A stretch of DNA of 64,000 nt from a virus, in IMG/VR virus record IMGVR_UViG_3300033143_001219, positions 1 through 64,000 of that record, one strand, 5' to 3'. Shown here one piece after another: positions 38-11,913 of the stretch; position 1 is the first letter of the stretch, and each line of letters starts with the position of its first letter. The notes beneath the pieces were generated by a model. The model was not told the DNA's origin. It did no database searches and saw nothing but the letters and a program-made list of their open reading frames with translations. A program made the translations under genes and the position numbers.

Positions 38-113
38 GGTTAGTAAGCTTAGATGGTCGAAGCGTCTGCCTCTAAAACAGAATAGCTGGGCTCGTTTCCC
101 AGACTAACCACCA
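38..113 (+). tRNA. Amber suppressor tRNA, anticodon CTA
   Basis: Cloverleaf: acceptor GGTTAGT/ACTAACC (38-44/103-109), D stem GCTT/AAGC, anticodon stem TCTGC/ACAGA with a C-A mismatch next to the loop, loop CTCTAAA (70-76), T stem CTGGG/CCCAG, discriminator A and encoded CCA. With T71 as the universal T33, the anticodon is CTA, which reads UAG. The variable loop is short (4 bases). The T loop begins with C rather than T. Charging identity is unknown. The mismatch and odd T loop leave some chance that the gene is degenerate. Confidence 0.75.
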
Positions 114-134
114 TTTTAAAGGAGAATATAGGAA

Positions 135-218
135 ATGAAAAGAACATAGACTCATGATCCACCTTGGGATATTGTGCTAATAATAAACTATTATATCAAT
201 ATAAACAAGGAGAATTAA
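135..218 (+). other. Short reading frame interrupted by an in-frame amber codon
   Basis: After an AAAGGAG ribosome-binding site (about 118-124) an ATG at 135 opens a frame MKRT, then TAG at 147-149, then 22 further codons (THDPPWDIVLII and on) to TAA at 216-218, two bases before the next start. The continuation has a hydrophobic stretch and ends where genes in this cluster usually end. Read with amber suppression it would give 27 residues. The gene lies 22 bases after the CUA-anticodon tRNA. Inference only; it may be a non-coding leader. Confidence 0.3.
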
Positions 219-219
219 A

Positions 220-537
220 ATGAAAACTGAAGAAGAAAAGAAAGAATATAAAGAAATTAAGCGTGCTTGGGCACGTTCAGTAAATAATGAAGAATACAAG
301 CCATATAAAGACGAATATGGTACAAAATATGAGGGAAAACTTAATGCTTTGCACTTTTTAGTGTATAACATTGTAAGAGGATTTCCTCAATCACGCGGAT
401 TTGAACCTTTGGGACAAGGATATGAGAAGGCGGTAGCGGACTTAAACATGCTTATAAAGTTTGAGAGGGAAGCGAAGCTCTTATTTCCATTTGATAACCT
501 GATAACCTTAGAAACATTTAAGGAGTTAGTAAAATGA
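220..537 (+). CDS. Hypothetical protein, 105 residues
   Basis: I do not recognise this protein. It starts at ATG 220 after AAGGAG at 207-212 and has a charged, Lys/Glu-rich N-terminus followed by a mixed sequence with no membrane segment or metal-binding motif. Its last codon overlaps the next gene (ATGA at 534-537), so the two are probably translated together. Composition suggests a small soluble cytoplasmic protein. The neighbour is a peptidyl-tRNA hydrolase-like gene in the middle of a tRNA cluster, but nothing in this sequence itself points to a role in translation. Confidence 0.75.
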   Translation: MKTEEEKKEYKEIKRAWARSVNNEEYKPYKDEYGTKYEGKLNALHFLVYNIVRGFPQSRGFEPLGQGYEKAVADLNMLIKFEREAKLLFPFDNLITLETFKELVK

Positions 538-845
538 CCCCTTACATGTATATAGTTGTTAGAACCGATCTAAGAAAGGAATTCCAATTAGTTCAAGCCT
601 GTCATGCGGCCATAGAGTCTGCATTCACGTTTGATAGACCAGATGATATCATACATTTAGTAGTGTTACAAGTAGCTAATAAACAGGAACTTGCAGAAGT
701 TGCCCTCCAACTATATAATGAAGGAAAACCTTACGAGGAGTTCTTTGAGAGCTGGGGTAACTTACAAAATACTGCATTAGCAACTAAACCAATTACTAAA
801 CAAAAGGAGGGAGTGCTTTCTAAGTTATCCCTCCTTACTTATTAA
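534..845 (+). CDS. PTH2-like protein (peptidyl-tRNA hydrolase II fold)
   Basis: Residues 5-26 (MYIVVRTDLRK ... LVQACHAA) match the N-terminal strand and first helix of the PTH2 family: the IVVRTDL segment and the QxxHA motif with His24. PTH2 enzymes release peptides from peptidyl-tRNA that has dropped off the ribosome. At 103 residues it is slightly shorter than cellular PTH2 (about 115-120), as is common in phage versions. It overlaps the upstream stop by four bases and is followed at once by tRNA-Glu. Activity is inferred; phage PTH2-like proteins are poorly tested. Confidence 0.7.
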   Translation: MTPYMYIVVRTDLRKEFQLVQACHAAIESAFTFDRPDDIIHLVVLQVANKQELAEVALQLYNEGKPYEEFFESWGNLQNTALATKPITKQKEGVLSKLSLLTY

Positions 846-846
846 T

Positions 847-920
847 ATACCCGTAGTTCAATGGTAGATCACACGGCTTTCAACCGTCAGATGCGGGTTC
901 AACTCCCGTCGGGTATACCA
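847..920 (+). tRNA. tRNA-Glu (TTC)
   Basis: Acceptor ATACCCG/CGGGTAT, anticodon loop CTTTCAA with anticodon TTC, T arm GCGGG with loop TTCAACT, discriminator A and encoded CCA. The D stem has one mismatch (GTTC/GATC). It begins one base after the stop of the preceding gene. Confidence 0.9.
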
Positions 921-970
921 GTATTTCCCACCTACCAATGAGTAGAAAGGGGTATCCGCATTATCCGGAC

Positions 971-1048
971 TATAATAGATGACCATAAAGGCCGTACTTG
1001 CCCGTCTGACGAAATGTACATCAGCCTCGATTGAACTCGGGGTTTTTT
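971..1048 (+). ncRNA. Possible small RNA between tRNA-Glu and tRNA-Gln
   Basis: The 128-base gap 921-1048 has no convincing ORF. A TATAAT hexamer at 971-976 would start RNA near 983, and an intrinsic terminator ends at 1048, which would give a transcript of about 65 bases. No good -35 box is visible and I recognise no family. It could equally be spacer with a leader-type terminator for tRNA-Gln. Confidence 0.22.
1025..1048 (+). terminator. Intrinsic terminator abutting tRNA-Gln
   Basis: Stem CCTCGA (1025-1030) pairs with TCGGGG (1037-1042) around a six-base loop and is followed by six T (1043-1048). The tRNA-Gln gene starts at the very next base, so the terminator and the tRNA 5' end are fused; partial read-through is presumably needed for the downstream tRNAs. 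Confidence 0.65.
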
Positions 1049-1124
1049 AGCTCCGTGGTGAAGTGGCAAACACATCTGGTTTTGATCCAGACATTCGTAG
1101 GTTCGAGTCCTACCGGAGCCGCCA
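1049..1124 (+). tRNA. tRNA-Gln (TTG)
   Basis: Acceptor AGCTCCG/CGGAGCC with an unpaired A1-C72, anticodon stem TCTGG/CCAGA, loop TTTTGAT (anticodon TTG), T arm GTAGG/CCTAC, discriminator G and encoded CCA. A weak 1-72 pair and G73 suit glutamine tRNA. Confidence 0.88.
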
Positions 1125-1132
1125 AACAATAT

Positions 1133-1205
1133 GCCCCGGCCAGCGGAAGGGATCTAGGCTACGAACCTAGTTAATTTGTGAGTTCGACTCTCACTCGGGG
1201 TTCCA
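1133..1205 (+). tRNA. tRNA-Arg (ACG)
   Basis: Acceptor GCCCCGG pairs with TCGGGGT, allowing G-T pairs; anticodon stem CTAGG/CCTAG with loop CTACGAA (anticodon ACG); T stem GTGAG/CTCAC; encoded CCA. The D arm is short and lacks the usual T8. A34 would need deamination to inosine by the host enzyme TadA. Confidence 0.82.
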
Positions 1206-1211
1206 AATAAT

Positions 1212-1298
1212 GGTAGATGCCGGCCAGTGGAGGCCGCCCAGTCTTGAAAACTGGTGGTGACCGTGAGGTTAGGGGTTCAACTCCTCCATCTACTTCCA
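1212..1298 (+). tRNA. tRNA-Ser (TGA)
   Basis: An 87-base class II tRNA with a long variable arm. Acceptor GGTAGAT/ATCTACT, anticodon stem CCAGT/ACTGG, loop CTTGAAA (anticodon TGA), T arm with loop TTCAACT, encoded CCA. Confidence 0.88.
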
Positions 1299-1306
1299 AA
1301 CATAAT

Positions 1307-1381
1307 GGTGACGTAGCTAACAGGTAAAGCAATATCTTCATAAGGTACGAAATAAGGGTTCAATTCCCTTCGTCACTACCA
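1307..1381 (+). tRNA. tRNA-Met (CAT), elongator type or Ile2
   Basis: Acceptor GGTGACG/CGTCACT, anticodon loop TTCATAA (anticodon CAT), T arm AAGGG/CCCTT, encoded ACCA. Position 11 is C, as in elongators. Whether C34 becomes lysidine (Ile2) cannot be told from the gene. Confidence 0.85.
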
Positions 1382-1396
1382 AATATAGGAAACAAT

Positions 1397-1570
1397 ATGA
1401 TATGTCCAGTATGTGACATGGGGGTATTAGAGCCTTTTACGGATGAAAAAGGTTTACGATATAATATATGTGATGCTTGTGGTAGTGAAATAGCAACACC
1501 ACATGACTTACGATATAATAAAGCTAAATTTTTAGCTAAGAGGGATAAAGATGGAAACAAGAAATGGTAA
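1397..1570 (+). CDS. Small zinc-finger protein, YgiT/MqsA-N-like
   Basis: A 57-residue frame starting at ATG 1397 (MICPVCDMGVLEPF), with two CxxC knuckles at about residues 3-6 and 25-28 (CPVC, CDAC). This spacing, with the CPVCxxG opening, resembles the YgiT/MqsA N-terminal zinc-binding domain that occurs in antitoxins and in stand-alone phage proteins. No toxin partner is seen next to it. The 3' end overlaps the next start by 20 bases. The similarity is by motif only, and the role is unknown. Confidence 0.6.
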   Translation: MICPVCDMGVLEPFTDEKGLRYNICDACGSEIATPHDLRYNKAKFLAKRDKDGNKKW

Positions 1571-1778
1571 TGGTGACGTACTTAGTAATGAAGTATTTGA
1601 AGAGAAGAAAGAAATAACAGAAGCTTTTGAAAAAGCTATGGATAATGTAGAAGTTAAAACAATTAAAATTACTAAAGATATTCCTATGACCGAAGAGCGT
1701 AGAAGAACAGTAGAAAAGAAACTTAGACGTACATTATTAAAAGCCGCTGAACTAGAGCGAGAAATAAAAGAAGGATAA
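1551..1778 (+). CDS. Hypothetical charged protein, 75 residues
   Basis: Not recognised. The start at ATG 1551 lies inside the end of the zinc-finger gene, with GAGGGA upstream at about 1540-1545 as ribosome-binding site. The protein is highly charged (Glu/Lys/Arg-rich), and residues 45-75 look strongly helical, so a short coiled coil is plausible. It ends two bases before the tRNA-Ser gene. No catalytic or metal motif is visible. Confidence 0.65.
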   Translation: METRNGNGDVLSNEVFEEKKEITEAFEKAMDNVEVKTIKITKDIPMTEERRRTVEKKLRRTLLKAAELEREIKEG

Positions 1779-1780
1779 TT

Positions 1781-1869
1781 GGAAGGTTGGCAGAACGGTA
1801 ATGCAGTAGTTTGCTAAACTATACAACCTGAGAATGGTTGAGTGGGTTCGACTCCCACACTTTCCACCA
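1781..1869 (+). tRNA. tRNA-Ser (GCT)
   Basis: An 89-base class II tRNA. Acceptor GGAAGGT/ACTTTCC, anticodon stem GTAGT/ACTAT with loop TTGCTAA (anticodon GCT), long variable arm (CAACC ... GGTTG), T stem GTGGG/CCCAC, encoded ACCA. Confidence 0.9.
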
Positions 1870-1875
1870 AATACT

Positions 1876-2139
1876 ATGATTAAAACATTAAAAGATAACT
1901 TAGGTGCAACAATGAATTTAGTGGGTTTAATTACAGCATCTTTTGCTGTACTAATATACTTACAAGCAAACTTTGTACAAGCAGCAGACTTTAAAGATTT
2001 TAAAGTACAAGACTGGGAAGACCAAATTTATAAGTTAGCAATCAAAGAAAACAGATTAGCTGAAGAGGGTAAAGTTCTGAAACCAGAAGAAAAAGCCTAC
2101 TTGGAAATGCTTAAGGCTAGATTAGCTAAAGAAAAATAA
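1876..2139 (+). CDS. Small membrane or exported protein, 87 residues
   Basis: I chose ATG 1876 because an earlier in-frame ATG (1834) lies inside the tRNA-Ser gene. Residues about 13-36 are hydrophobic (LVGLITASFAVLIYL) and end in VQAA, so this is either a membrane anchor or a cleavable signal peptide. The rest is charged and helical. The function is unknown. A strong promoter for the next gene follows directly after its stop. No clear ribosome-binding site precedes the ATG, which lowers confidence in the exact start. Confidence 0.6.
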   Translation: MIKTLKDNLGATMNLVGLITASFAVLIYLQANFVQAADFKDFKVQDWEDQIYKLAIKENRLAEEGKVLKPEEKAYLEMLKARLAKEK

Positions 2140-2142
2140 TAG

Positions 2143-2171
2143 TTGACATAGAGGTTATATTTTAGTATAAT
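2143..2171 (+). promoter_or_regulatory. Sigma70-like promoter P1
   Basis: Consensus TTGACA (2143-2148), 17-base spacer and TATAAT (2166-2171), followed by ATG. Transcription would be expected to start near 2178, exactly at the ATG of the next gene, implying a leaderless mRNA. Confidence 0.85.
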
Positions 2172-2177
2172 ATGTTT

Positions 2178-2402
2178 ATGAAATCAGAAAAGCCAAAAAT
2201 TACAGAAATGTTTGATAAACTACCTAAAGTAATATCAAGCTGTAAGACAGAAATGCAATTAGCATATGCACAAAGATATGCACACTTAGCCTATAGACTA
2301 TATATAGATTCTAGAGTTCTGCGTATACTTGGTGATCAGTTACTAAGTAACAAAAGAGAAAAATTAATTAATGCTCCGGTGGTGGAACGGCATACACGCT
2401 AG
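2178..2402 (+). CDS. Hypothetical protein, 74 residues, 3' end inside tRNA-Leu
   Basis: Not recognised. The frame has ATGs at 2172 and 2178. I chose 2178 because promoter P1 should start RNA there; 2172 would lie upstream of the transcript. The protein is mostly helical with no known motif. Its last ten codons and TAG stop (2400-2402) lie within the tRNA-Leu gene that begins at 2373, so tRNA processing would cut the end off the reading frame on the same transcript. Because the stop is TAG, the amber suppressor tRNA could also read through it. Confidence 0.6.
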   Translation: MKSEKPKITEMFDKLPKVISSCKTEMQLAYAQRYAHLAYRLYIDSRVLRILGDQLLSNKREKLINAPVVERHTR

Positions 2403-2458
2403 GTTTAGGTTCTAGTGCCTTAATCGGTATGAGGGTTCGAGTCCCTCTCGGAGTACCA
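2373..2458 (+). tRNA. tRNA-Leu (TAG)
   Basis: An 86-base class II tRNA. Acceptor GCTCCGG/TCGGAGT, anticodon stem CTAGG/TCTAG, loop TTTAGGT (anticodon TAG, reading CUA), long variable arm, T stem GAGGG/CCCTC, encoded ACCA. Confidence 0.9.
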
Positions 2459-2463
2459 AATTT

Positions 2464-2538
2464 GGGGACGTGGTGATAACGGGAACACGCCGCGCTTGCA
2501 ACGCGGAAATGAGGGTTCGATTCCCTCTGTCTCCACCA
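2464..2538 (+). tRNA. tRNA-Ala (TGC)
   Basis: Acceptor GGGGACG/TGTCTCC contains the G3-U70 pair that marks alanine tRNAs. Anticodon stem CCGCG/CGCGG with loop CTTGCAA (anticodon TGC), T stem GAGGG/CCCTC, encoded ACCA. Confidence 0.92.
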
Positions 2539-2544
2539 AATTAA

Positions 2545-2668
2545 AGATGCTAGACGATAACCCGCTACAGTCTGTGTGAGGCAGACCATCAATTTGATAT
2601 GTATTTAAATATAAAAATTCGTGCATGGCTAAAGAGCCCTAATGTTTTTAAGTACATATCAAATTTTA
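2545..2668 (+). ncRNA. Structured non-coding segment of unknown family
   Basis: No gene occupies 2539-2673, but the segment is full of self-pairing sequence: GATG with CATC enclosing a GTCTG/CAGAC hairpin, then a stem of about 19 pairs (AATTTGATATGTATTTAAA with its near-perfect complement at about 2648-2667), whose loop holds a second GGCT/AGCC hairpin. It resembles neither a tRNA nor a terminator. It may be a stable phage RNA or a processing signal. Confidence 0.4.
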
Positions 2669-2673
2669 ACAAT

Positions 2674-2748
2674 GCTGGGTAGGCCGATTGGCGAGGCGTT
2701 AGTTTTACATACTAATAGTATACGGTTCGATTCCGTGACCCAGTACCA
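2674..2748 (+). tRNA. tRNA-Val (TAC)
   Basis: Acceptor GCTGGGT/ACCCAGT, anticodon stem TTAGT/ACTAA with loop TTTACAT (anticodon TAC), T arm ACGG/CCGT with loop TTCGATT, encoded ACCA. Confidence 0.9.
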
Positions 2749-2766
2749 ACTTATAGGAATAGAACA

Positions 2767-3579
2767 ATGTTTATCAGAGCAGTATCAGACCTACACCTAG
2801 AATTTAGCTATGGTGATGTGCGTTTGAATGAATTACCTACAGATAAAGATACAGTTCTTATTCTAGCAGGTGATATTGGCATAGCCAGTAAGCCACATAC
2901 TTATTTGAAGTTTTTTGAAGATAAAGCTAATCGCTTTCGCGATGTTATTTATATCTTGGGAAACCATGAGCATTACAAAGGTAGTTTTACTAAGTCTAAA
3001 AATAGAATTAAAGATACTCTAGCAGAATTCGTAAATGTTTCCGTTATTGAGAAAGAAACTATTGTTATAGATGGTGTAGCTTTTGTAGGTGCAACCTTAT
3101 GGACAGATATGAATCATCATGACTGCTTATGTATGAATAATTCTCAACTAATGATGAGTGATTATAGTAGTATCCGATTCGGACCTACTGCTGAGCCTTG
3201 GAAGTTTAATCTTAAGCCAGTTAATACGGTAGAAGACCATATTAATGCAAAGCATTATATCTTTAAAGAAATTAAAAAGCAAAAGGATGTGGGAAACAAA
3301 GTAGTAGTTATTAGTCATCATTTGCCAAGTTACTTATCTTTAGCACAGGAGTTCAAAGGTGATACATCAGGAGGTTCATTAAATGGCGCATACGCTTCAG
3401 AGTTATTTGAAGATATTATGGATACGCAGCCTAATATTTGGATTCATGGTCATACCCATAGCTCTTTTGATTATAAGATTGGTGATACAAACGTTATTTG
3501 CAATCCAAGAGGATACTTCACATTAGGTGGAAACTACTTAAACTTAGATTTTAATGAGGAGTTATTATTAAATGTGTAA
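2767..3579 (+). CDS. Calcineurin-like metallophosphoesterase, 270 residues
   Basis: The full set of metallophosphoesterase metal-binding motifs is visible in order: SDLHLE (Asp8, His10), AGDI (Asp36), GNHEH (Asn66, His67), SHHLPS near residue 185 and HGHTH near residue 228. Such enzymes use a two-metal centre to hydrolyse phosphoesters. Phage members have varied or unknown substrates, including nucleotides and RNA or DNA ends. Length is normal for the family. The start ATG 2767 follows TAGGAA. A second, shorter phosphoesterase lies at 4884. The specific substrate cannot be read from sequence. Confidence 0.85.
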   Translation: MFIRAVSDLHLEFSYGDVRLNELPTDKDTVLILAGDIGIASKPHTYLKFFEDKANRFRDVIYILGNHEHYKGSFTKSKNRIKDTLAEFVNVSVIEKETIVIDGVAFVGATLWTDMNHHDCLCMNNSQLMMSDYSSIRFGPTAEPWKFNLKPVNTVEDHINAKHYIFKEIKKQKDVGNKVVVISHHLPSYLSLAQEFKGDTSGGSLNGAYASELFEDIMDTQPNIWIHGHTHSSFDYKIGDTNVICNPRGYFTLGGNYLNLDFNEELLLNV

Positions 3580-3739
3580 ACTATTATATATTGTAAAATT
3601 TTGTACTAAAAGTCAGGTTTATGATAATAAACCTGACAGGCACTTTTATAATGAAAAGAAAGCTTATAGTTTAGTAGATGAATATAGAACTAATGATTAT
3701 CATTGGGCTACACTACATACAATTCAACCTGAGGAATAA
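3572..3739 (+). CDS. Hypothetical protein, 55 residues
   Basis: Not recognised. The ATG at 3572 overlaps the phosphoesterase stop by eight bases, with GAGGAG upstream at about 3555-3560, which argues for coupled translation. The sequence (MCKLLYIVKFC ...) is rich in Tyr and Lys with a short hydrophobic start. It looks soluble, and no motif is evident. Confidence 0.55.
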   Translation: MCKLLYIVKFCTKSQVYDNKPDRHFYNEKKAYSLVDEYRTNDYHWATLHTIQPEE

Positions 3740-3741
3740 CA

Positions 3742-3888
3742 ATGAAAAATGAACGAAAAGATTATATGAGCAGAGCACAGAAAGATGCAATGGGTAACTT
3801 ACCAAGAACTCATGCCAACTGTAAGTTAAAAACTAAAGTAATGAGACCGGGCAAGACAGCTAAAGATAGAGCCTTATCGGGTCATTAA
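3742..3888 (+). CDS. Hypothetical basic protein, 48 residues
   Basis: Not recognised. It starts two bases after the previous stop; the ribosome-binding site GAGGAA lies inside the previous gene end. Strongly basic (many Lys and Arg, for example KLKTKVMRPGKTAKDR), so it could bind nucleic acid, but this is inference from composition only. A tRNA begins nine bases after its stop. Confidence 0.55.
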   Translation: MKNERKDYMSRAQKDAMGNLPRTHANCKLKTKVMRPGKTAKDRALSGH

Positions 3889-3896
3889 AGAACAAT

Positions 3897-3986
3897 AGCA
3901 AGGTCGAGAAGTCAGGTCATCTCATGGGGCTCATAACCCTATACGCTCTCGCGAGTTCGCAGGTTCGAATCCTGCCTTTGCTTCCA
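3897..3986 (+). tRNA. Initiator-like tRNA-Met (CAT) with a long variable arm
   Basis: Acceptor AGCAAGG/CTTTGCT, D stem GAGA/TCTC (A11-T24, the purine-pyrimidine order typical of initiators), anticodon arm with three consecutive G-C pairs next to loop CTCATAA (GGG ... CCC, the initiator hallmark), T arm GCAGG/CCTGC, encoded CCA. Unusually, the variable region is 17 bases and can form a stem (GCTC/GAGT), as in class II tRNAs. The 1-72 pair is A-T instead of the initiator C-A mismatch. Confidence 0.8.
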
Positions 3987-3992
3987 AACAAT

Positions 3993-4068
3993 TCCTCGGT
4001 GGCTGATTAGGTAAAGCAGCAGACTGTTAATCTGTGACATGAAGGTTCGAGTCCTTCGCGGGGAGCCA
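3993..4068 (+). tRNA. tRNA-Asn (GTT)
   Basis: Acceptor TCCTCGG/GCGGGGA with one mismatch, anticodon stem GCAGA/TCTGT with loop CTGTTAA (anticodon GTT), T stem GAAGG/CCTTC, discriminator G, encoded CCA. Confidence 0.9.
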
Positions 4069-4074
4069 AACAAT

Positions 4075-4145
4075 ATCGGTGATGCTGGGACTGGCAGAGG
4101 TCTCCAAAACCTTAGTAGGGGGTTCGATTCCCTCCACCGGTGCCA
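4075..4145 (+). tRNA. tRNA-Trp (CCA)
   Basis: Acceptor ATCGGTG/CACCGGT, anticodon stem GAGGT/ACCTT with loop CTCCAAA (anticodon CCA), T arm with loop TTCGATT, discriminator G as expected for tryptophan, encoded CCA. The D arm is short. Confidence 0.9.
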
Positions 4146-4160
4146 ACTTAAGGTAATAAA

Positions 4161-4349
4161 ATGTCAACTATTTGTCAGAAAATTGAAGATTTAAAAGGTA
4201 CTTGTAATCACTTAGATTTAGATGATTTTACAGTAGTAGAATTACAATTATTAGATGAAGAAATATTTGAATGTGAACAATGCGGCTGGTGGTGTGAACT
4301 GAACGAAATGTCAGAAGATGCTATGGTATGTACGGATTGTGTAGAATAA
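4161..4349 (+). CDS. Small zinc-ribbon-like protein, 62 residues
   Basis: Starts at ATG 4161 after AAGGTAA. The C-terminal half contains two CxxC pairs, CEQC at about residues 38-41 and CTDC at about 57-60, separated by an acidic segment. That is the layout of a treble-clef or zinc-ribbon fold. The N-terminal part is acidic and helical. Its partner is unknown; small zinc ribbons in phages often bind nucleic acid or host polymerase, but nothing here decides that. Confidence 0.6.
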   Translation: MSTICQKIEDLKGTCNHLDLDDFTVVELQLLDEEIFECEQCGWWCELNEMSEDAMVCTDCVE

Positions 4350-4358
4350 AAGAATAAT

Positions 4359-4435
4359 ACCTCATTAGGCTAGCTTGGTAAGTCACTCCGTTTGGGGCGG
4401 AGAGATCGCTGGTTCAAATCCAGCATGGGGTACCA
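4359..4435 (+). tRNA. tRNA-Pro (TGG)
   Basis: Acceptor ACCTCAT/ATGGGGT, anticodon stem CTCCG/CGGAG with loop TTTGGGG (anticodon TGG), T stem GCTGG/CCAGC, encoded ACCA. Confidence 0.92.
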
Positions 4436-4456
4436 AATTTCCCTCTCTATAATAAA

Positions 4457-4521
4457 AAATGACTGGAGAGTATAACAGGTTCAAGGTCTGGCCTACCTAT
4501 TGTTGGTAGAGCAAGTCATTT
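4457..4521 (+). ncRNA. tRNA-sized structured RNA candidate
   Basis: An eight-base closing stem AAATGACT/AGTCATTT (4457-4464 and 4514-4521) encloses a CTACC/GGTAG hairpin with a seven-base loop and a CAG/CTG hairpin containing GTTCAAG. A TATAAT at 4448-4453 would start RNA at about 4460. The size (65 bases) and closing stem recall a tRNA, but arms and CCA do not fit. It could be a degraded tRNA or a separate small RNA. Confidence 0.35.
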
Positions 4522-4538
4522 AGGAAATAAATATTAAA

Positions 4539-4613
4539 GGCATTGTGGCAGATTGGTAATGCAGTTGATTGTCTATCAACCGAATGAGGGTTCGATTCCC
4601 TTCAATGTCGCCA
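4539..4613 (+). tRNA. tRNA-Asp (GTC)
   Basis: Acceptor GGCATTG/CAATGTC, anticodon stem GTTGA/TCAAC with loop TTGTCTA (anticodon GTC), T arm with loop TTCGATT, discriminator G (typical for aspartate), encoded CCA. Confidence 0.92.
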
Positions 4614-4630
4614 ATTTAAAGAGAAATAAA

Positions 4631-4768
4631 ATGACTAAGCAGGAAATAGCAGCACTAAGGAAAATATGTGAAGATTATACTACAGATATTATATCTCGTA
4701 TAGAAGCTTCTTATGATGCTGCATATAAAAAGTATAATGTACCCGTGGTCGAATGGTTAGACTGCTGA
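4631..4768 (+). CDS. Hypothetical protein, 45 residues, 3' end inside tRNA-Cys
   Basis: I chose ATG 4631 (MTKQEIAALRK), with AAAGAG at 4618-4623 as ribosome-binding site; the longer frame from 4553 would run through tRNA-Asp. The protein is helical and charged with no known motif. Its last ten codons and TGA stop (4766-4768) lie inside tRNA-Cys, which starts at 4739, so the final residues VPVVEWLDC are set by tRNA sequence. Confidence 0.5.
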   Translation: MTKQEIAALRKICEDYTTDIISRIEASYDAAYKKYNVPVVEWLDC

Positions 4769-4813
4769 TTGCAAACCAGTAACACGCAGGTTCGAATCCT
4801 GTCGGGTATTCCA
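4739..4813 (+). tRNA. tRNA-Cys (GCA)
   Basis: Acceptor GTACCCG/CGGGTAT, anticodon stem GCTGA/CCAGT with an A-C mismatch beside loop TTGCAAA (anticodon GCA), T arm GCAGG/CCTGT, discriminator T as in cysteine tRNAs, encoded CCA. Confidence 0.9.
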
Positions 4814-4883
4814 ATATTAAGCCTCTCACACCACGCAAGTAGAGCGGAAATGTCAAGCTTATTTAAATAAAGGAAGTAGTAAA

Positions 4884-5408
4884 ATGATCAACGTATTTTT
4901 TATCGCTGATTTACATTTTGGGCACAAGAACATTATCGGCTTTTGCCGACCACAGTTCCAAGACCATTTTGAAATGGCAGATAAACTAATTGTAAATTGG
5001 AATAAAGTAGTAAAACCAAAAGATGTAGTATATGTATTAGGTGACGTTGCCTTCGGCAAAGATAACCTACATTACCTTTCACAAATGAATGGCAGAAAGC
5101 ACTTAGTTATGGGAAACCATGATGTATATGCTATTAAAGAATATGTACCTTACTTTGACCATATTTGGGGATGTAACAACTATAAAGGTTGTATCTTAAC
5201 TCACGTCCCAATTATTGAGAGTCAATTTTATAGGTTTAAATTAAACATTCATGGGCATGTACATTGTGCAGATGATGATGTAAAATTACGGGACGACCCA
5301 CGATACTTCAATGTATGTGCGGATAGTATTGATTTAACACCAATTAGCTGGGAAGAAATTAAAGAAAGAACAAATTTCGACTTTATACCTACACGCTCAA
5401 TTTTATAA
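4884..5408 (+). CDS. Calcineurin-like phosphoesterase, 174 residues
   Basis: A short metallophosphoesterase of the phage/YfcE-like type. Visible motifs: ADLHFGH (Asp9, His11, His14), LGDVAFG near residue 54, GNHD near residue 79, LTHVP near 110, and HGHVH near residue 124. This is a complete two-metal site. Start ATG 4884 follows AAAGGAAG. Unlike the larger gene at 2767 it lacks extra domains. Small phage enzymes of this kind have been linked to nucleotide or RNA-end phosphate removal, but the substrate here is unknown. Confidence 0.85.
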   Translation: MINVFFIADLHFGHKNIIGFCRPQFQDHFEMADKLIVNWNKVVKPKDVVYVLGDVAFGKDNLHYLSQMNGRKHLVMGNHDVYAIKEYVPYFDHIWGCNNYKGCILTHVPIIESQFYRFKLNIHGHVHCADDDVKLRDDPRYFNVCADSIDLTPISWEEIKERTNFDFIPTRSIL

Positions 5409-5431
5409 GTATTAAAACAAAGGACTGGATT

Positions 5432-5692
5432 ATGAAAACATTAGAACAAATAGAAGTTGAAATTAAACAAACTAATGAACACTTAGAAGATGTAGCGTTT
5501 ATGGCATTTGTTAAAGATAAGCATACAGAACTAATGGCTAGAGTAGATAAAGCTACAAATGACTTGAAGTGTTTAGAAAAAACAAAAGTGCAAAAAACGT
5601 TAGCTGTATATAGAGAACAATTTGATGGTTTTTGCCCTGAGCATTGTTCAACATATAAAGAATATTATATGGATAAAGTAACAATTAAATAA
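5432..5692 (+). CDS. Hypothetical coiled-coil protein, 86 residues
   Basis: Not recognised. Residues 1-60 are a charged helical region with heptad-like spacing (MKTLEQIEVEIKQTNEH ...), so a coiled coil is likely. The C-terminal part contains two Cys (CPEHC) close to a His, possibly a metal site but incomplete. Start ATG 5432 follows AAAGGA. The stop is two bases before tRNA-His. Confidence 0.65.
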   Translation: MKTLEQIEVEIKQTNEHLEDVAFMAFVKDKHTELMARVDKATNDLKCLEKTKVQKTLAVYREQFDGFCPEHCSTYKEYYMDKVTIK

Positions 5693-5693
5693 T

Positions 5694-5766
5694 GTAGCGA
5701 TGGCTCAATGGTAGAGCGTCGAGTTGTGGCCTCGAAGGCAAGGGTTCGATTCCCTACGCTACCCCA
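5694..5766 (+). tRNA. tRNA-His (GTG)
   Basis: Acceptor GTAGCGA/ACGCTAC with the 7-66 pair mismatched, D stem GCTC/GAGC, anticodon stem TCGAG/CTCGA with loop TTGTGGC (anticodon GTG), discriminator C as in bacterial histidine tRNAs, encoded CCA. The base before position 1 is T, so the required G-1 is not encoded. Confidence 0.9.
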
Positions 5767-5772
5767 AATTAT

Positions 5773-5847
5773 AGCCTCGTAGCTTAACGGTAAAGCAATC
5801 GGCTGATAACCGATAGAGTACAAGTTCGATTCTTGTCGAGGCTACCA
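5773..5847 (+). tRNA. tRNA-Ile (GAT)
   Basis: Acceptor AGCCTCG/CGAGGCT, D stem GCTT/AAGC, anticodon stem ATCGG/CCGAT with loop CTGATAA (anticodon GAT), T stem ACAAG/CTTGT, encoded ACCA. Confidence 0.93.
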
Positions 5848-5862
5848 AATAAAAGGAAGATT

Positions 5863-6075
5863 ATGTCTGAAAAGATGCAAGAATATATTATGGATATATG
5901 TGTAGCTTATGAAGAAGGTTATGCTATTGGAGAACAAAATATGAGTTCTTCCCTCAATACATACCCCGTTAGTTCAGAAAGATATTATGCATGGTACTAT
6001 GGACATACAAACTCATTAACTAATCAAATGCTACAAGACGATGATATGGAAATAGCATTTAATTTGGAAGTATAG
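5863..6075 (+). CDS. Hypothetical protein, 70 residues, stop inside tRNA-Phe
   Basis: I chose ATG 5863 (MSEKMQEYIMD) with AAAGGAAG just upstream; the longer frame from 5833 would start inside tRNA-Ile. Acidic, Tyr-rich protein (SERYYAWYYGH) without a recognised domain. Its TAG stop (6073-6075) lies within the first bases of tRNA-Phe (6066 on), so stop and tRNA acceptor stem are the same bases. Confidence 0.6.
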   Translation: MSEKMQEYIMDICVAYEEGYAIGEQNMSSSLNTYPVSSERYYAWYYGHTNSLTNQMLQDDDMEIAFNLEV

Positions 6076-6141
6076 CTCAGTAGGTAGAGCAACTGGTTGA
6101 AGCCCAGTGTGTCGTAGGTTCGATTCCTACTACTTCCACCA
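6066..6141 (+). tRNA. tRNA-Phe (GAA)
   Basis: Acceptor GGAAGTA/TACTTCC, D stem GCTC/GAGC, anticodon stem ACTGG/CCAGT with loop TTGAAGC (anticodon GAA), T stem GTAGG/CCTAC, encoded ACCA. Confidence 0.93.
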
Positions 6142-6156
6142 AATTAAAGGTAACTT

Positions 6157-6681
6157 ATGTTAAAATATTTTAATAGGTATACATTAATAGCTGCAATCAC
6201 AACCTTAAGTATGAGTTTCTTCATGCTTCCAATACAAAATCAAAAGAAAATTATAGTAGCAAAACCAAAGCCTATCTCAATTCCATTAGAAATGGAGTTG
6301 AAGTGCTTAGCTGATAATATATATCATGAGGCTAGGAATGAGTCTATAAAAGGTCAAGTAGCTGTAGCATTAGTAACTATAAATAGGGTAAACTCTCAGT
6401 ATTACCCAAATACAATTTGTGAAGTAGTTTGGGAATACAAACAGTTTTCGTGGACATTAGATAAAGTATTGGCTAAAACTAAGTATAATAAAAGAGCCTA
6501 TGATAAAGCAGAGTTAATTGCATTAGTTTTTATAACTAAAACAATGGCTAATGAAGAAATTAGAGATTTTACTAATAACTCCACTCATTATCATGCTAAC
6601 TATGTAAGTCCTTATTGGGCTAGTAACTTAAAGTATATAATGAAAATAGACAACCACATATTTTATAAATTCAAAAAATAA
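6157..6681 (+). CDS. SleB/CwlJ-type cell wall hydrolase with N-terminal anchor
   Basis: Residues about 8-26 form a hydrophobic N-terminal segment (signal anchor or signal peptide), followed by a basic linker. From residue 48 the sequence matches the Hydrolase_2 (SleB/CwlJ) domain: LADNIYHEARNES with the probable catalytic Glu58, GQVAVALVTINRV, CEVVWEYKQFSW, and the C-terminal THYHA ... YWAS. These enzymes cleave peptidoglycan glycan strands. The anchor suggests export by the host secretion machinery. This is a second wall enzyme besides the M15 peptidase at 32507. Start ATG 6157 follows AAAGGTAA. Confidence 0.82.
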   Translation: MLKYFNRYTLIAAITTLSMSFFMLPIQNQKKIIVAKPKPISIPLEMELKCLADNIYHEARNESIKGQVAVALVTINRVNSQYYPNTICEVVWEYKQFSWTLDKVLAKTKYNKRAYDKAELIALVFITKTMANEEIRDFTNNSTHYHANYVSPYWASNLKYIMKIDNHIFYKFKK

Positions 6682-6684
6682 TAG

Positions 6685-6713
6685 TTGACTTCGCAACTAT
6701 AATTTGATATAAT
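6685..6713 (+). promoter_or_regulatory. Sigma70-like promoter P2
   Basis: TTGACT (6685-6690), 17-base spacer, TATAAT (6708-6713). The downstream bases ATGTTTTAGAAAT nearly repeat those after P1 and P3. Start of RNA is expected near 6720, giving a 19-base leader that contains a GGAG ribosome-binding site. Confidence 0.85.
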
Positions 6714-6738
6714 ATGTTTTAGAAATTGGAGATACTAT

Positions 6739-6855
6739 ATGAAATATTTATTAACTGCTCCATTTTGGATTCCACTATCTATATTATTTCTTATACTATG
6801 GATTAAACTAGGAAGAGAATATATTATACAACGGGACGCTAACTCAATTGGCTAG
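6739..6855 (+). CDS. Small single-pass membrane protein, 38 residues
   Basis: ATG 6739 follows TTGGAGAT at a good distance and is the first gene after promoter P2. Residues 4-23 are hydrophobic (LLTAPFWIPLSILFLILW), then the chain is basic. The TAG stop (6853-6855) lies inside tRNA-Lys (6833 on). Size and topology would suit a holin-like, anti-holin-like or regulatory membrane peptide, and a wall hydrolase lies just upstream, but no family is recognised. Confidence 0.6.
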   Translation: MKYLLTAPFWIPLSILFLILWIKLGREYIIQRDANSIG

Positions 6856-6909
6856 AGTATCCGGCTTTTAACCGGCAGGTTCCGAGTTCAAGTCTCGGGC
6901 GTCCCACCA
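6833..6909 (+). tRNA. tRNA-Lys (TTT)
   Basis: Acceptor GGGACGC/GCGTCCC, D arm with GGC in the loop, anticodon stem CCGG/CCGG around loop CTTTTAA (anticodon TTT), T stem CCGAG/CTCGG, encoded ACCA. Confidence 0.93.
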
Positions 6910-6916
6910 AACAACT

Positions 6917-6995
6917 AAAAGAGTAAATAAAATGATAGATTTCGTAAATATATGCAGTATATTGGGACACTATTATTATATTTACTCTTTTTTTA
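6917..6995 (+). terminator. Terminator-like long-stem structure
   Basis: A 13-pair stem AAAAGAGTAAATA (6917-6929) with TATTTACTCTTTT (6979-6991) closes a 49-base loop that contains its own AATATA/TATATT hairpin, and a T run follows the stem. It probably ends transcripts from promoter P2 or protects the tRNA-Lys precursor. Confidence 0.5.
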
Positions 6996-7007
6996 TCGAG
7001 AAATTAT

Positions 7008-7199
7008 ATGACACCAGAAAGGTACAAAGAATTACAACTATTTAAATCTAAACTAACACAAGAAGAAATTAAAGAAGGCTGGCATTACTGTTTAGAATGG
7101 GATGAAATGCTTTGTCATCCAGAATGGGAAGAGGCGAGAGTTTGTGGATGTGAAGTTAAAGAGTTTATACCCAATACAGGTAATGTAACAAAAATATAG
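7008..7199 (+). CDS. Hypothetical protein, 63 residues
   Basis: Not recognised. ATG 7008 is preceded only by a weak purine stretch. Contains several Trp and Cys (GWHYCLEWDEMLCHPEW, CGC), which could bind metal, but no standard finger spacing is present. It ends with TAG whose last base is the first base of tRNA-Thr, the tightest gene-tRNA junction in the window. Confidence 0.6.
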   Translation: MTPERYKELQLFKSKLTQEEIKEGWHYCLEWDEMLCHPEWEEARVCGCEVKEFIPNTGNVTKI

Positions 7200-7272
7200 C
7201 CGAGGTAACTCAGTCAGGCTAGAGTACCGTACTAGTACTACGGTGGCGGAGGTTCGAAGCCTTCCCTCGGCA
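7199..7272 (+). tRNA. tRNA-Thr (AGT), no encoded CCA
   Basis: Acceptor GCCGAGG/CCTCGGC, anticodon stem CCGTA/TACGG with loop CTAGTAC (anticodon AGT), T arm GGAGG/CCTTC with loop TTCGAAG, discriminator A followed by CTT. It is the only complete tRNA here without an encoded CCA and has an A34 anticodon rare for threonine in bacteria. It may come from a different source than the others. Confidence 0.8.
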
Positions 7273-7299
7273 CTTTATAAATTAACAAGTGAGAAACAC

Positions 7300-8293: not shown

Positions 8294-9370
8294 ATGAAAA
8301 GAATTGGCTTATATGTTTTAGGCTTAACAGCAATGTTTAATAGTTACGCAGTAACATTAGACGCACCAGTTAGTGTAGAACTAAGTTCTGGTGGTGTAAG
8401 AACATACCTTGTTGAAGATTTCAACAACGGTGGAATTAAAGATTTAATGGTAGCAGATACAGACTCGGGTAAGGTAACTGTTTACTTTGGTGAGAATCCA
8501 AAAGAAGGTTTATACAATGATGGAAAGACACTACCAACATTAGGAATTGCAGCGTACTGGAATCCAGTTAATTTCCTAGTATCAGCAGATTTTGATAATG
8601 ATGGTGATTTAGATGTAGCATTAGGTGCTTATATGTGTGATGGTGATAATCACAACTTCCCCGTTATGTTAAATGACGGTAAAGGTAAATTTACTACAGC
8701 CCCATGTCTAAGACGTGCTGGTGGTAGTACATATATTGATACATATATTAACTTCATGTCTACAGGTGATGTGAACCTAGATGGTAATGAAGATTTAGTT
8801 ATCAGCGTTACTGGTAACTATGGTGAGAAAGGCGTATACTTATATTTAGGTAATGGTGATGGAACATTTAGTGACAGAATAACTGTATATGATGCAGGCA
8901 CTTCAGGGTTCAGACCTATAAATATGGTTGTTGGTGATTATACTTCAGAAGGTATTCCAGATATTATTGTACTATCAGGTATTAGTTTAACTGGTGAACG
9001 CGAAAATACATTATTTATTGGCGACGGTGTTGGAAACTTCACAGAATCAGTATATGAAGGTAATATTGAGTTTACAGACGAGTTTGAAAACGACCCCGTT
9101 ACTGCTTTAGTACGTACATGGAGTACTTGGCATCCAGTAGATGTTCATATTGTTAATGACTTTAATGGCGATGGTTTAACTGACGTAGTTACTTTACTTA
9201 CTGAAGTTGGCAAGAATACAACAGCAGTACTATATTTACAATATACAGGTAACACACCACCTCCAGCTCCAGTAAAAACTAAAGAAGTAGATCCTATTGA
9301 AGTTGAAGAAGTAGAAGAAATTGAAATTGAAGAAATTGAAGAAATTGAACCTGAAGAGGCTCAAGAATAA
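8294..9370 (+). CDS. Exported FG-GAP/VCBS repeat protein 1, 358 residues
   Basis: The N-terminus (MKRIGLYVLGLTAMFNSYAVT) is a signal peptide. The body contains repeated DxDxDGxxD calcium-binding loops typical of FG-GAP/VCBS beta-propeller blades: DFDNDGDLDVALG, DVNLDGNEDLVIS, DFNGDGLTDVVTL, and degenerate copies near the start. The last about 45 residues are a low-complexity acidic tail of VEE/IEE units beginning VKTKEVDPIEVEEVE. Start ATG 8294 follows AGGAGAG. Directly followed by a paralogue with the same architecture. The role is unknown; such folds usually bind proteins or sugars outside the cytoplasm. Confidence 0.8.
   Translation: MKRIGLYVLGLTAMFNSYAVTLDAPVSVELSSGGVRTYLVEDFNNGGIKDLMVADTDSGKVTVYFGENPKEGLYNDGKTLPTLGIAAYWNPVNFLVSADFDNDGDLDVALGAYMCDGDNHNFPVMLNDGKGKFTTAPCLRRAGGSTYIDTYINFMSTGDVNLDGNEDLVISVTGNYGEKGVYLYLGNGDGTFSDRITVYDAGTSGFRPINMVVGDYTSEGIPDIIVLSGISLTGERENTLFIGDGVGNFTESVYEGNIEFTDEFENDPVTALVRTWSTWHPVDVHIVNDFNGDGLTDVVTLLTEVGKNTTAVLYLQYTGNTPPPAPVKTKEVDPIEVEEVEEIEIEEIEEIEPEEAQE
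9268..9316 (+). repeat. Direct repeat, copy 1 (acidic-tail module)
   Basis: A 49-base segment inside the first FG-GAP gene that recurs at 10338-10386 with one difference (AAA versus AAG in one Lys codon). It encodes the shared VKTKEVDPIEVEEVE start of the tail. The near-identity beside diverged bodies suggests recent duplication or gene conversion of the tail. Confidence 0.85.
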
Positions 9371-9381
9371 AGGAGAAATAA

Positions 9382-10443
9382 ATGAAAAAATTAATTATAT
9401 TACTAGCTATGCTAGTATCTACTAGTATTCACGCCACTAATTTTGAGCCTCCCGTTGAGGCAGAACTTAATGATGAAGGTGTCAGAACGTATTTAGTAGA
9501 AGATTTTAATGGTAAGGGTGTTAACGATTTAATGGTATCAGACCTATCAGGTTCTGTACGTGTTTATTTAGGCGAAGACCTTGAATCAGGATTATTTAAT
9601 GATAGTCGTGGTATTCCAAATACCAGTATACTAAATAATAACTTAGTTGTCAATGCACTAGCTAGCACAGATTTTGATAATGATGGTGACTTAGATTTAG
9701 CATTAGGTTCTTTTTTCTGTGAAAACTCATTAATTCATTTTGCAGTAATGTTAAATGATGGTAAAGCTAGATTCACTCCCGCACCTTGTGTAGGACCACA
9801 GGATGGTAGATTTACTTATCTTGAAACAGGTGTTGTTGATATTGAAGCAGGTGATTTAAACAGTGACGGTAACGCAGATTTATTAGTTGCTACATTTGGC
9901 GAAGATATTGGTGTATATTCTTATCTTGGTAATGGTGATGGTACTTTTAGTAACAGAGTTCTTGTTTATAAACCTAGAACTACGGCTTTTAGCCCTAAAA
10001 ATTTAACTATTATTGATGTTAATATGGATGGTGCAGTTGATATTATAATTCATACAGGTCTATATTCCCCAAATGAAACTTTATTGTTTGTTGGGAATGG
10101 AGCTGGTGACTTTATACAAACTGCTTGGAATCAAGTTGTACCTGTTGAAGCACCTGAATTCCCAGAAGTTCAAGCTATCGCAGACGCATGGCCAACGGAT
10201 TATTTAATAGATGCACATATCGTTGATGACTTCACAGGCAATGGCCTAGGTGATATTATTACTTTATATACACCAGCAGGTTTAAATACGGGTGCAATTT
10301 TATATGTACAATCCGGAGGGGTAGCAATTCCAACAGATCCAGTAAAGACTAAAGAAGTAGATCCTATTGAAGTTGAAGAAGTAGAACCAGAAGAAGTAGA
10401 AGAAGTTGAAATTGAAGAAATTGAGCCTGAAGAGGTTCAATAG
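9382..10443 (+). CDS. Exported FG-GAP/VCBS repeat protein 2, 353 residues
   Basis: Paralogue of the upstream gene: signal peptide MKKLIILLAMLVSTSIHA, FG-GAP loops (DFNGKGVNDLMVS, DFDNDGDLDLALG, DLNSDGNADLLVA, DVNMDGAVDIIIH) and the same acidic tail VKTKEVDPIEVEEVE. The tail coding region is nearly identical in DNA between the two genes while the bodies have diverged. Start ATG 9382 after AAAGGAG, 11 bases downstream of its twin, so the two form one operon. The stop (TAG) lies within the first helix of the tmRNA acceptor piece. Confidence 0.8.
   Translation: MKKLIILLAMLVSTSIHATNFEPPVEAELNDEGVRTYLVEDFNGKGVNDLMVSDLSGSVRVYLGEDLESGLFNDSRGIPNTSILNNNLVVNALASTDFDNDGDLDLALGSFFCENSLIHFAVMLNDGKARFTPAPCVGPQDGRFTYLETGVVDIEAGDLNSDGNADLLVATFGEDIGVYSYLGNGDGTFSNRVLVYKPRTTAFSPKNLTIIDVNMDGAVDIIIHTGLYSPNETLLFVGNGAGDFIQTAWNQVVPVEAPEFPEVQAIADAWPTDYLIDAHIVDDFTGNGLGDIITLYTPAGLNTGAILYVQSGGVAIPTDPVKTKEVDPIEVEEVEPEEVEEVEIEEIEPEEVQ
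10338..10386 (+). repeat. Direct repeat, copy 2 (acidic-tail module)
   Basis: Second copy of the 49-base segment described at 9268-9316, in the second FG-GAP gene. Confidence 0.85.
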
Positions 10444-10507
10444 TATTATTGTATGATGTTAATGATAGAGTTATAAGACGCGGGTTCGATTCCCGCCAGC
10501 TCCACCA
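10437..10507 (+). ncRNA. ssrA: Permuted tmRNA, acceptor piece
   Basis: Contains the T arm GCGGG/CCCGC with loop TTCGATT (10480-10496), the 3' acceptor strand CAGCTCC (10497-10503) and ACCA (10504-10507). The segment AGACGCGGG ... CCAGCTCCACCA is almost the textbook 3' end of bacterial tmRNA. No matching 5' strand lies upstream, but GGGGCTG at 10688 pairs perfectly with it, including the G3-U70 alanine determinant. Bases 10459-10476 pair with 10707-10724 (15 of 18 positions, two of them G-U) as the long P2 helix, and 10437-10451 pairs with 10901-10914 as the helix joining the two piece ends. Confidence 0.88.
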
Positions 10508-10687
10508 CAAGTATTCTCTAACAAGGTAGCATATTGTTCAGAATATGTTGCGTTAGACAGATATAAATAGTACCTTTAAGCTGAAACCTTATAAAAGCAT
10601 TGGGATTTGAAAACCTCGGTATGTTGGTACTTCATTACTAGAGTGCATAACCTAGTATAGTGTAAGATATTTGAGAATACTTTTGAT
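10508..10687 (+). other. tmRNA intervening segment
   Basis: This segment lies between the CCA end and the GGGG start and should be removed on maturation. It is about 180 bases and strongly structured: CTAAC/GTTAG (10518-10522/10552-10556) stacked on a ten-pair stem (10526-10535/10542-10551), and AGTACC (10569-10574) with GGTACT (10626-10631). It contains no convincing ORF. Confidence 0.65.
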
Positions 10688-10915
10688 GGGGCTGCCATGG
10701 CTTCGATTGTAATTGGATAATTAATTGACAATACGTTATCAGACGTAATCTGGTATAAAATAATTGCAAACGATAATGACTTCGCAATGGCTGCCTAATC
10801 TTTAAATAGATTAGAGTAAGCATGGGTTTGGGCTACCTTGAAACAGAAAGCCCACTAATTATGGATGGAGCATGTAGTCATGCATCCTGAGAGTGCTGCA
10901 CAATTTACTATTGAT
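10688..10915 (+). ncRNA. ssrA: Permuted tmRNA, coding piece with tag ANDNDFAMAA
   Basis: Starts GGGGCTG (10688-10694). An H-type pseudoknot precedes the tag: TACGT/ACGTA (10732-10736/10743-10747) with ATCAG/CTGGT (10738-10742/10750-10754). The resume codon GCA at 10766 opens the tag A-N-D-N-D-F-A-M-A-A, stop TAA at 10796-10798, in the same context as other tmRNAs. The stop lies at the base of hairpin AATCT/AGATT (10797-10801/10808-10812), then TGGGCT/AGCCCA (10829-10834/10849-10854). The 3' limit is placed just after TACTATTGA (10906-10914), which pairs with the acceptor piece start. No SmpB gene is visible, so host SmpB is presumably used. Confidence 0.88.
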
Positions 10916-10997
10916 AAGTAAGGGTTGTAAGCTGGGATACTTGCGATGTTATCAGCATTTAGAAAGTAGAAGTCACAGACGGTCTTCCCATCCACCA
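10916..10997 (+). other. Unassigned segment ending in a CCA-like sequence
   Basis: Between the inferred end of the tmRNA coding piece and the next gene. It ends CCCATCCACCA, and CCATCCA (10988-10994) is complementary to TGGATGG at 10862-10868 inside the coding piece. No complete tRNA can be folded. It may be the precursor 3' end of the tmRNA or a remnant of an older, non-permuted acceptor end. Confidence 0.35.
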
Positions 10998-11014
10998 CAT
11001 TAAAGGAGAATATA

Positions 11015-11104
11015 ATGATAGTATTAATTATACTTAGTATACCTTGGATATTTTTGCATATTGAACATAGAGTTATATTTGGAGAATGGGAGTTCTTTTT
11101 ATGA
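11015..11104 (+). CDS. Small membrane protein, 29 residues
   Basis: AAAGGAG sits at an ideal distance before ATG 11015. Residues 2-15 are hydrophobic (IVLIILSIPWIFLH), followed by a short charged tail. The stop overlaps the next start (ATGA at 11101-11104), which supports real, coupled translation. Too short to assign to a family; it could be a small regulatory membrane peptide. Confidence 0.55.
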   Translation: MIVLIILSIPWIFLHIEHRVIFGEWEFFL

Positions 11105-11277: not shown

Positions 11278-11644
11278 AATATCATTATTAGAAGCTAAGA
11301 AGATAGTAGAAAATATAGAAGTAAAAGATACCTTTGCATCCTTAATTAATAAGACTGTAGCTGAAGACCAACTAAAATTATATACATATGAAATACTATG
11401 TGAGAAGATATTTGTAGCTGAAAGATATTTTAATCTTGATGCACTATATAACCAAATTAATTGTTTAAAAAGAAAGGAACAATATTATGCCCCATGTAAT
11501 GCTGTATTTTATTACAAAGAGGGTATAACTGCGGAAGATAAACTAACAAATAGAATTATATGGCTTGACATAATATCTCAATTCGAGTTATTAGAAGATA
11601 AGATTGAAAGTATATCTGAGCATATATACATTGAGGTAGATTAA
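11270..11644 (+). CDS. Hypothetical protein, 124 residues
   Basis: Not recognised. ATG 11270 overlaps the preceding gene by eight bases after GGGGA. Predicted to be largely helical and acidic, with two Cys that do not form a metal motif. It ends at the first base of the next start codon (TAATG), so translation is probably coupled to the GroES homologue, but no link to chaperonin function can be seen in its sequence. Confidence 0.65.
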   Translation: MSKISLLEAKKIVENIEVKDTFASLINKTVAEDQLKLYTYEILCEKIFVAERYFNLDALYNQINCLKRKEQYYAPCNAVFYYKEGITAEDKLTNRIIWLDIISQFELLEDKIESISEHIYIEVD

Positions 11645-11913
11645 TGAATTTAAGACCGATGAGAGATAGAGTAGTAATTAAAGCTACCAAAGTTGAAGAA
11701 AAGTCTGGTGGTGGAATTATATTACCAGAAGATGCTAAAAAAACGTCAACAACTGGAGAAGTACTAGCAATTGGTGTACATGAAAAAGATTGTAGTATGG
11801 ATATTGGGGATATGGTACTTTTTGGTAAGTTCGCAGGAACAAATATAAAAGTGCAGAATGAAGATTTTATTATAATGAACATAAGTGAAGTAATAGCAGT
11901 AGTACAAAATTAA
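11644..11913 (+). CDS. GroES-like co-chaperonin, 89 residues
   Basis: Matches Cpn10 along its length: N-terminal LRPMRDRVVIKATKVEEKSGGGIILPE (shown in parts: MRDRVVIK, SGGGIILPEDA), the TGEVLAIG turn, DIGDMVLFGKFAG, and the C-terminal EDFIIMNISEVIAVV. The mobile loop (KSGGGIILPEDA), which docks onto GroEL, is well conserved. Cpn10 forms a seven-membered lid on GroEL. Phage versions such as T4 gp31 replace the host lid for folding capsid proteins. No GroEL is encoded here. Length is slightly below the usual 95-97. Confidence 0.9.
   Translation: MNLRPMRDRVVIKATKVEEKSGGGIILPEDAKKTSTTGEVLAIGVHEKDCSMDIGDMVLFGKFAGTNIKVQNEDFIIMNISEVIAVVQN

Follow-up and report, generated by a model that had tools for sequence, protein, structure and literature searches.

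The 64,000-nt stretch of DNA analysed here (the window), part of an 81,105-base virus record, raises the question of whether a tmRNA-like locus whose 3' end is encoded ahead of its 5' end is a genuine and working tmRNA gene, and from which source a phage could have obtained it. A comparison with Rfam covariance models by cmscan, a check proposed together with the initial annotation, gave a match to the tmRNA_permuted family RF04321 at 10447-10798 (108.9 bits, cut-off 47, E 6e-22), and ARAGORN reported a permuted tmRNA at 10415-10889 with the tag ANDNDFAMAA. The alpha_tmRNA model also matched in the window (61.3 bits, cut-off 50); the standard family RF00023 was not among the matches for the region. 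The permuted order first read from the letters alone, that is, the T arm, CAGCTCC and ACCA followed by a 180-nt spacer and then by GGGGCTG at 10688, is the order in which both RF04321 and ARAGORN agree.

The individual parts of the molecule are listed below. As initially described, the acceptor stem forms all seven pairs and carries G3-U70, and the pre-tag pseudoknot is intact, its stems pairing 5/5 and 6/6. The P2 helix had been credited with 15 paired positions of 18; what stands of it here is two six-pair segments, both fully paired (10447-10452 with 10728-10733, and 10469-10474 with 10709-10714). The tag, the same from ARAGORN as in the original reading of the sequence, is alanine-rich, and the resume codon is GCA. 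Judged from its sequence, the tmRNA gene is genuine and permuted, and its carrier is a T5-like phage. The conserved RNA spans approximately 10447-10860, and these are better feature bounds than the 10437-10915 proposed at first.

Features of the permuted tmRNA locus, with positions in the window
Feature	Position	Strand	Remarks
tRNA cluster, ~20 genes	38..7273	+	upstream of the tmRNA, same strand; context
3' tRNA-like piece: P2 5' strand, T arm, acceptor 3' strand, encoded ACCA	10447..10507	+	start of the RF04321 match; ARAGORN; conservation with L123 begins here
T arm GCGGG-UUCGAUU-CCCGC	10480..10496	+	two pairs compensated in L123
Acceptor 3' strand CAGCUCC (10497-10503) plus ACCA (10504-10507)	10497..10507	+	7/7 pairs with 10688-10694, G3-U70
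Intervening segment (IVS), 180 nt	10508..10687	+	no ORF >17 aa; fold z-score -1.9
IVS-closing helix, 5' arm AAGUAUUCUC	10509..10518	+	10/10 pairs with 10673-10682
IVS-closing helix, 3' arm GAGAAUACUU	10673..10682	+	pairs with 10509-10518
UGAU motif, last four IVS bases	10684-10687	+	conserved in 33/41 phage genes
Acceptor 5' strand GGGGCUG, start of coding piece	10688..10694	+	RNase P cut expected 5' of 10688
P2 3' strand (10728-10733) and pre-tag pseudoknot UACGU/ACGUA, UAUCAG/CUGGUA	10728..10755	+	identical in L123
Tag frame GCA AAC GAT AAT GAC TTC GCA ATG GCT GCC TAA (ANDNDFAMAA)	10766..10798	+	ARAGORN
Post-tag hairpin UAAUCU...AGAUUA	10796..10813	+	in folds of the precursor and of the coding piece
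3' pseudoknot GGGU/ACCU with GGGCU/AGCCC	10824..10853	+	one compensatory change in L123, C-G to U-A
Probable mature 3' end region of coding piece, ACUAAUUA	10854..10861	+	homology to L123
Stretch between tmRNA and next gene, without counterpart in L123	10862..11003	+	outside the conserved RNA

By the similarity of its polymerase, ligase, portal and capsid genes, the phage that carries the tmRNA is T5-like and related to Demerecviridae, which served as the reference phages in this comparison. Its genes for DNA polymerase, DnaB-like helicase, the split NAD-dependent ligase, portal, capsid and major tail protein are of the T5-like type. Identity to Providencia phage PR1 is 44% for the polymerase, identity to Vibrio phages is 41% for the portal protein, and the ligase matches the PHROG ligase A and B families, in agreement with the T5-like assignment made initially. 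With 41-44% identity, polymerase and portal are roughly as far from the T5-like phages of enterobacteria as from those of Vibrio, and so favour neither group of hosts. The tmRNA gene closes a cluster of about 20 tRNA genes on the same strand. Just upstream of it (8294-10443) lie the genes of two neighbouring, related FG-GAP-repeat proteins, whose N termini resemble signal peptides and whose tails are Glu-rich; both are missing at the same position in a sister contig, L123. A phage-encoded GroES-like co-chaperonin (11644-11913; Pfam Cpn10, E 3.7e-23) is conserved in L123.

The helicase of L123 is 89% identical to that of the window phage, and the contig has a permuted tmRNA with the tag ANDETFAIAA at the same position and with the same genes downstream. 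Between the two genes, compensatory changes are found in three of the seven acceptor pairs, in two pairs of the T stem and in one pair of the 3' pseudoknot, and G3-U70 is kept. Since six pairs changed on both sides, the permuted pairing is directly supported. The tags differ in sequence, with the reading frame and the alanine-rich end retained. The L123 gene has a spacer of only 7 nt, no encoded CCA and no stretch corresponding to 10862-11003. The window and L123 thereby form a natural experiment on the processing of two-piece tmRNAs, with a spacer of 180 versus 7 nt and with or without an encoded CCA. The L123 segment with the spacer AUACGAC and no encoded CCA is L123:6780-6802; CCA is encoded in the 13 tRNA genes that ARAGORN finds in the L123 locus, unlike in the tmRNA gene there. 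At the DNA level, the only matches to annotated phages are the T-arm/acceptor stretch and one 26-base stretch.

We consider it very probable that the locus is a working, phage-borne, circularly permuted tmRNA gene of the two-piece type. In the known two-piece type, the intervening segment is not part of the mature RNA. A single transcript would contain the P2/T-arm piece, the 180-nt spacer and the coding piece. By analogy with known tRNA and tmRNA maturation, RNase P could cut 5' of 10688, 3' processing would leave the CCA at 10507, and the spacer would be discarded, the two pieces being held together by the acceptor stem and P2. Alanyl-tRNA synthetase would then charge the RNA via G3-U70, and together with host SmpB the RNA could rescue stalled ribosomes, adding ANDNDFAMAA, a typical C-terminal degradation tag. 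Dependence on host SmpB is suggested because a search of the 81-kb phage record yielded no SmpB gene. Since the gene ends the tRNA cluster, its likeliest use would be to sustain translation in the late phase of infection, once the RNA genes of the host have been lost or its tRNAs and tmRNA cleaved. If the gene is used, the phage's own translation kit of about 20 tRNAs gains ribosome rescue.

In the predicted fold the 180-nt spacer prolongs the acceptor stem, and its excess of stability is modest (z -1.9). Comparison of sequences gives a precursor in which the acceptor stem is followed by an internal loop of ACCA and UGAU and then by a covarying spacer helix, with the future ends opposite each other on one long hairpin. 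The alignment of 41 phage genes (A1) was built from fixed-length ends and was not fitted to the helix. In this alignment the helix register is paired in 86.3% of cells, compared with 60.0% (sd 1.8) for shuffled partners, and two-sided changes are seen in all 11 pairs. The covariation score of the spacer helix together with the acceptor stem is 0.571; shuffling lowers it to 0.172, and sliding the register by 1-3 columns gives no more than 0.191. The helix is absent from the RF04321 and alpha_tmRNA alignments shown, and no report of a covarying spacer helix was found in the literature searched. Among approximately 35 bacterial loci the spacers measure 4-47 nt, and some, including genes with alphaproteobacterial-type tags, are likewise closed by the helix and end in UGAU or UGCU. 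We infer that in the precursor the helix would bring both cut sites face to face. The helix is not essential, since the 7-nt spacer of L123 leaves no room for it. Two other identities of the window spacer were considered and rejected. Against a mobile element, the spacer recurs neither elsewhere in the window nor in any of the loci retrieved, and its 10-base terminal inverted repeats are the arms of the conserved spacer helix; against a protein gene, it lacks any ORF longer than 17 aa.

Several other readings of the RNA have to be weighed against a working two-piece tmRNA. That the gene is inactive or in decay, acquired along with other RNA genes and left unused like the tag-less tmRNA of phage DS6A, is decidedly unlikely. 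The spacer at 10508-10687 and the stretch at 10862-11003 are present here and not in L123, as if insertions were accumulating, and the DS6A tmRNA without a coding sequence inhibits the endogenous tmRNA when expressed (PMC11915505). Against decay, no damage is seen in the acceptor stem, the T arm, P2, the two pseudoknots checked or the tag frame. Since the split from L123, six pairs have changed in compensation, and the tag has changed in sequence with its frame and alanine-rich end retained. Still less probable is an RNA that is not cut in two, with the spacer either kept on the acceptor arm in the form of a long hairpin or lost by an unrelated route. The continuous extension of the acceptor stem by the spacer is compatible with this, as is a loop of only 7 nt in L123, and one study (PMC9433436) reports that formation of the RNase P encounter complex is inhibited when the 5' leader pairs with the 3' RCCA. 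Yet an uncut acceptor end would not be chargeable with alanine, while G3-U70 is present in 41/41 phage genes, and for bacterial genes of the permuted form it is established that the mature RNA consists of two pieces (PMC11915505). The chance of a tmRNA in standard order, running from 10688 to about 10997 (CCCATCCACCA), is close to negligible. The sequence near 10997 resembles a CCA-ended acceptor strand and has a six-pair match to GGATGG (10864-10869), but CCCATCC is not complementary to GGGGCTG and lacks a preceding T arm, the segment 10840-11020 contains no Rfam family at E 10, RF00023 is missing from the matches as described above, and the whole stretch is absent from L123.

As to the source of the gene, the initial annotation suggested an alphaproteobacterial host or donor. 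We regard this as unlikely. The window gene taken alone scores slightly higher with alpha_tmRNA (61 bits) than with beta_tmRNA (56), and its 3' pseudoknot resembles the alpha consensus. On the other side, the beta model takes a short spacer only and may penalise the 180 nt of the window, and the L123 gene scores 111 bits with the beta model versus 45 with the alpha model. A FastTree tree of 83 permuted tmRNAs (196 columns; short sequences, cyanobacteria left out) placed the window and L123 genes as sisters with support 1.0, among phage genes together with Rhodocyclales-type genes from betaproteobacteria; the bacterial sequences with alphaproteobacterial-type tags fell on the opposite side of a split with support 0.977. 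The tag also ends in the FAMAA type. A phage pool with betaproteobacterial affinity appears to fit better than an alphaproteobacterial source. L177, which was read through locus L209, is the third T5-like contig with a permuted tmRNA, a more distant one with the tag ANDNSIVEDYALAA, G3-U70 and a 12-pair spacer helix. Because this gene is not the sister of the window gene on the tree, T5-like phages may have acquired their copies in separate events. The tag frame is intact in all three T5-like genes.

One element of the first description, a 13-pair end helix between 10437-10451 and 10901-10914, was dropped from the mature RNA. A shuffled 3' partner paired equally well or better in 9-20% of trials, and the helix has no counterpart in L123, where the stretch containing its 3' arm is missing. 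Its 5' arm shares bases with two other features, the stop codon that ends the upstream ORF (9382-10443) and a 9-pair hairpin at 10420-10441 that competes with it. The stretch 10862-11003 was also considered as a second tRNA-like element and rejected: 6-7 closing pairs and CCACCA are present, but there is no T arm and the fold z-score is -0.5. No Rfam match was obtained in 10840-11020 even at E 10, and no homologue of 10862-11003 was found. This stretch of about 140 bases is closed by UGGAUGG/CCAUCCA plus CCACA, and a second copy of the acceptor-end TCCACCACA results.

In other phages the spacer contains protein genes. An ORF for a 50-aa protein (MKYKIVVK...ENTII) lies wholly within a 175-nt spacer, as delimited by ARAGORN, in 12 of the 16 contigs having it; a thirteenth contig, L258, has it in a spacer judged by eye near the contig end. 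The nested loci are L246-L251 and L254-L260 in IMG/VR (for example, L248:1501-1653). Differences by codon position number 116/99/272, and pairwise comparison of the six distinct sequences gave 173 synonymous versus 65 non-synonymous single steps. Because of this excess at synonymous and third positions, the ORF has the appearance of a true gene kept by purifying selection. Relatives of the protein stand free in L252, L253 and L261, in the last case beside an apparent broken acceptor end. A second, unrelated family of 56-59 aa is found inside the spacer in six contigs (L262-L267) and free in three (L268-L270); the spacers around it measure 196-205 nt, and the indels have lengths divisible by three. 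Single cases of other spacer ORFs were seen in L071, L107, L274 and L275 (41 aa) and in L111 (47 aa). No Pfam match above the cut-off and no convincing PHROG match was obtained for the spacer proteins, and the partial literature covered by our search yielded no report of nested spacer genes.

We give about even chances to the idea that the phage spacer is a structured and sometimes used element. Its closing helix would present both cut sites and let the spacer reach about 200 nt harmlessly, so that it could become a landing place for genes; the 180 nt in the window could then be an expanded spacer with an unidentified RNA or a lost cargo gene. The helix and the nested genes make the purpose of the spacer directly testable, and we consider this the most interesting lead.

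The initial annotation called a permuted tmRNA in a T5-like phage unexpected. This is appropriate for the carrier, where the gene is rare; it is not for phages at large, since permuted phage tmRNAs have been published. Two-piece tmRNAs account for 53 of 133 distinct phage tmRNAs, 50 of these 53 being from marine or aquatic phages, in the 2022 paper on phage Melnitz (PMC9004378). Phage tmRNAs are also listed in the 2025 tmRNA database paper (PMC11915505), and one pattern scan of IMG/VR gave at least about 50 permuted calls. The permuted tmRNA in a phage is an already known kind of gene, and the T5-like carrier is unusual. RF04321 and the genes of methylophage Melnitz and the pelagiphages (PMC9004378) share with the window gene the order of pieces, the acceptor stem with G3-U70, the CCA, the pre-tag pseudoknot, the resume codon GCA, the alanine-rich tag and the phage carrier. 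The Melnitz-type carriers are T4-like myophages, whereas the window phage is T5-like; unlike in Melnitz-type phages, no glutamine riboswitch was found by Rfam in the window. The window spacer is near the top of the phage range, which among the matches listed is 4 to about 220 nt with a median of 78.

With beta_tmRNA (RF01850), L123 scores 111.3 bits, above the cut-off, and the window 55.6, below the cut-off of 84. The FAMAA end of the window tag occurs in the ANDERFAMAA tags of Rhodocyclales, and the 7-nt spacer of L123 is short like the 4-nt spacer of that group, in contrast to the 180 nt in the window, which also lacks the terminal hairpin of the beta type. With alpha_tmRNA (RF01849) the ranking is reversed, L123 giving 45.1 bits, below both the cut-off and the score of the window gene. 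The window tag does not have the alphaproteobacterial form ANDNYAxxxLAA, and the gene stands apart from such sequences on the tree.

Among T5-like phages the permuted tmRNA is rare and not a usual trait: it was present in none of the 8 complete Demerecviridae genomes and in 2 of 29 T5-like ligase contigs (L123 and L177), most of these contigs being fragments. Standard tmRNAs above the cut-off were likewise absent from the eight references and from the L123 and L177 contigs. The range of permuted tmRNAs is extended to a T5-like lineage whose complete reference genomes tested do not have the gene. An unannotated permuted tmRNA with the tag ANDDNFRPALRLAA was also observed in a cultured, soil-derived phage, Xanthomonas phage Rb1 (PQ569993.1; L122:3939-4367).
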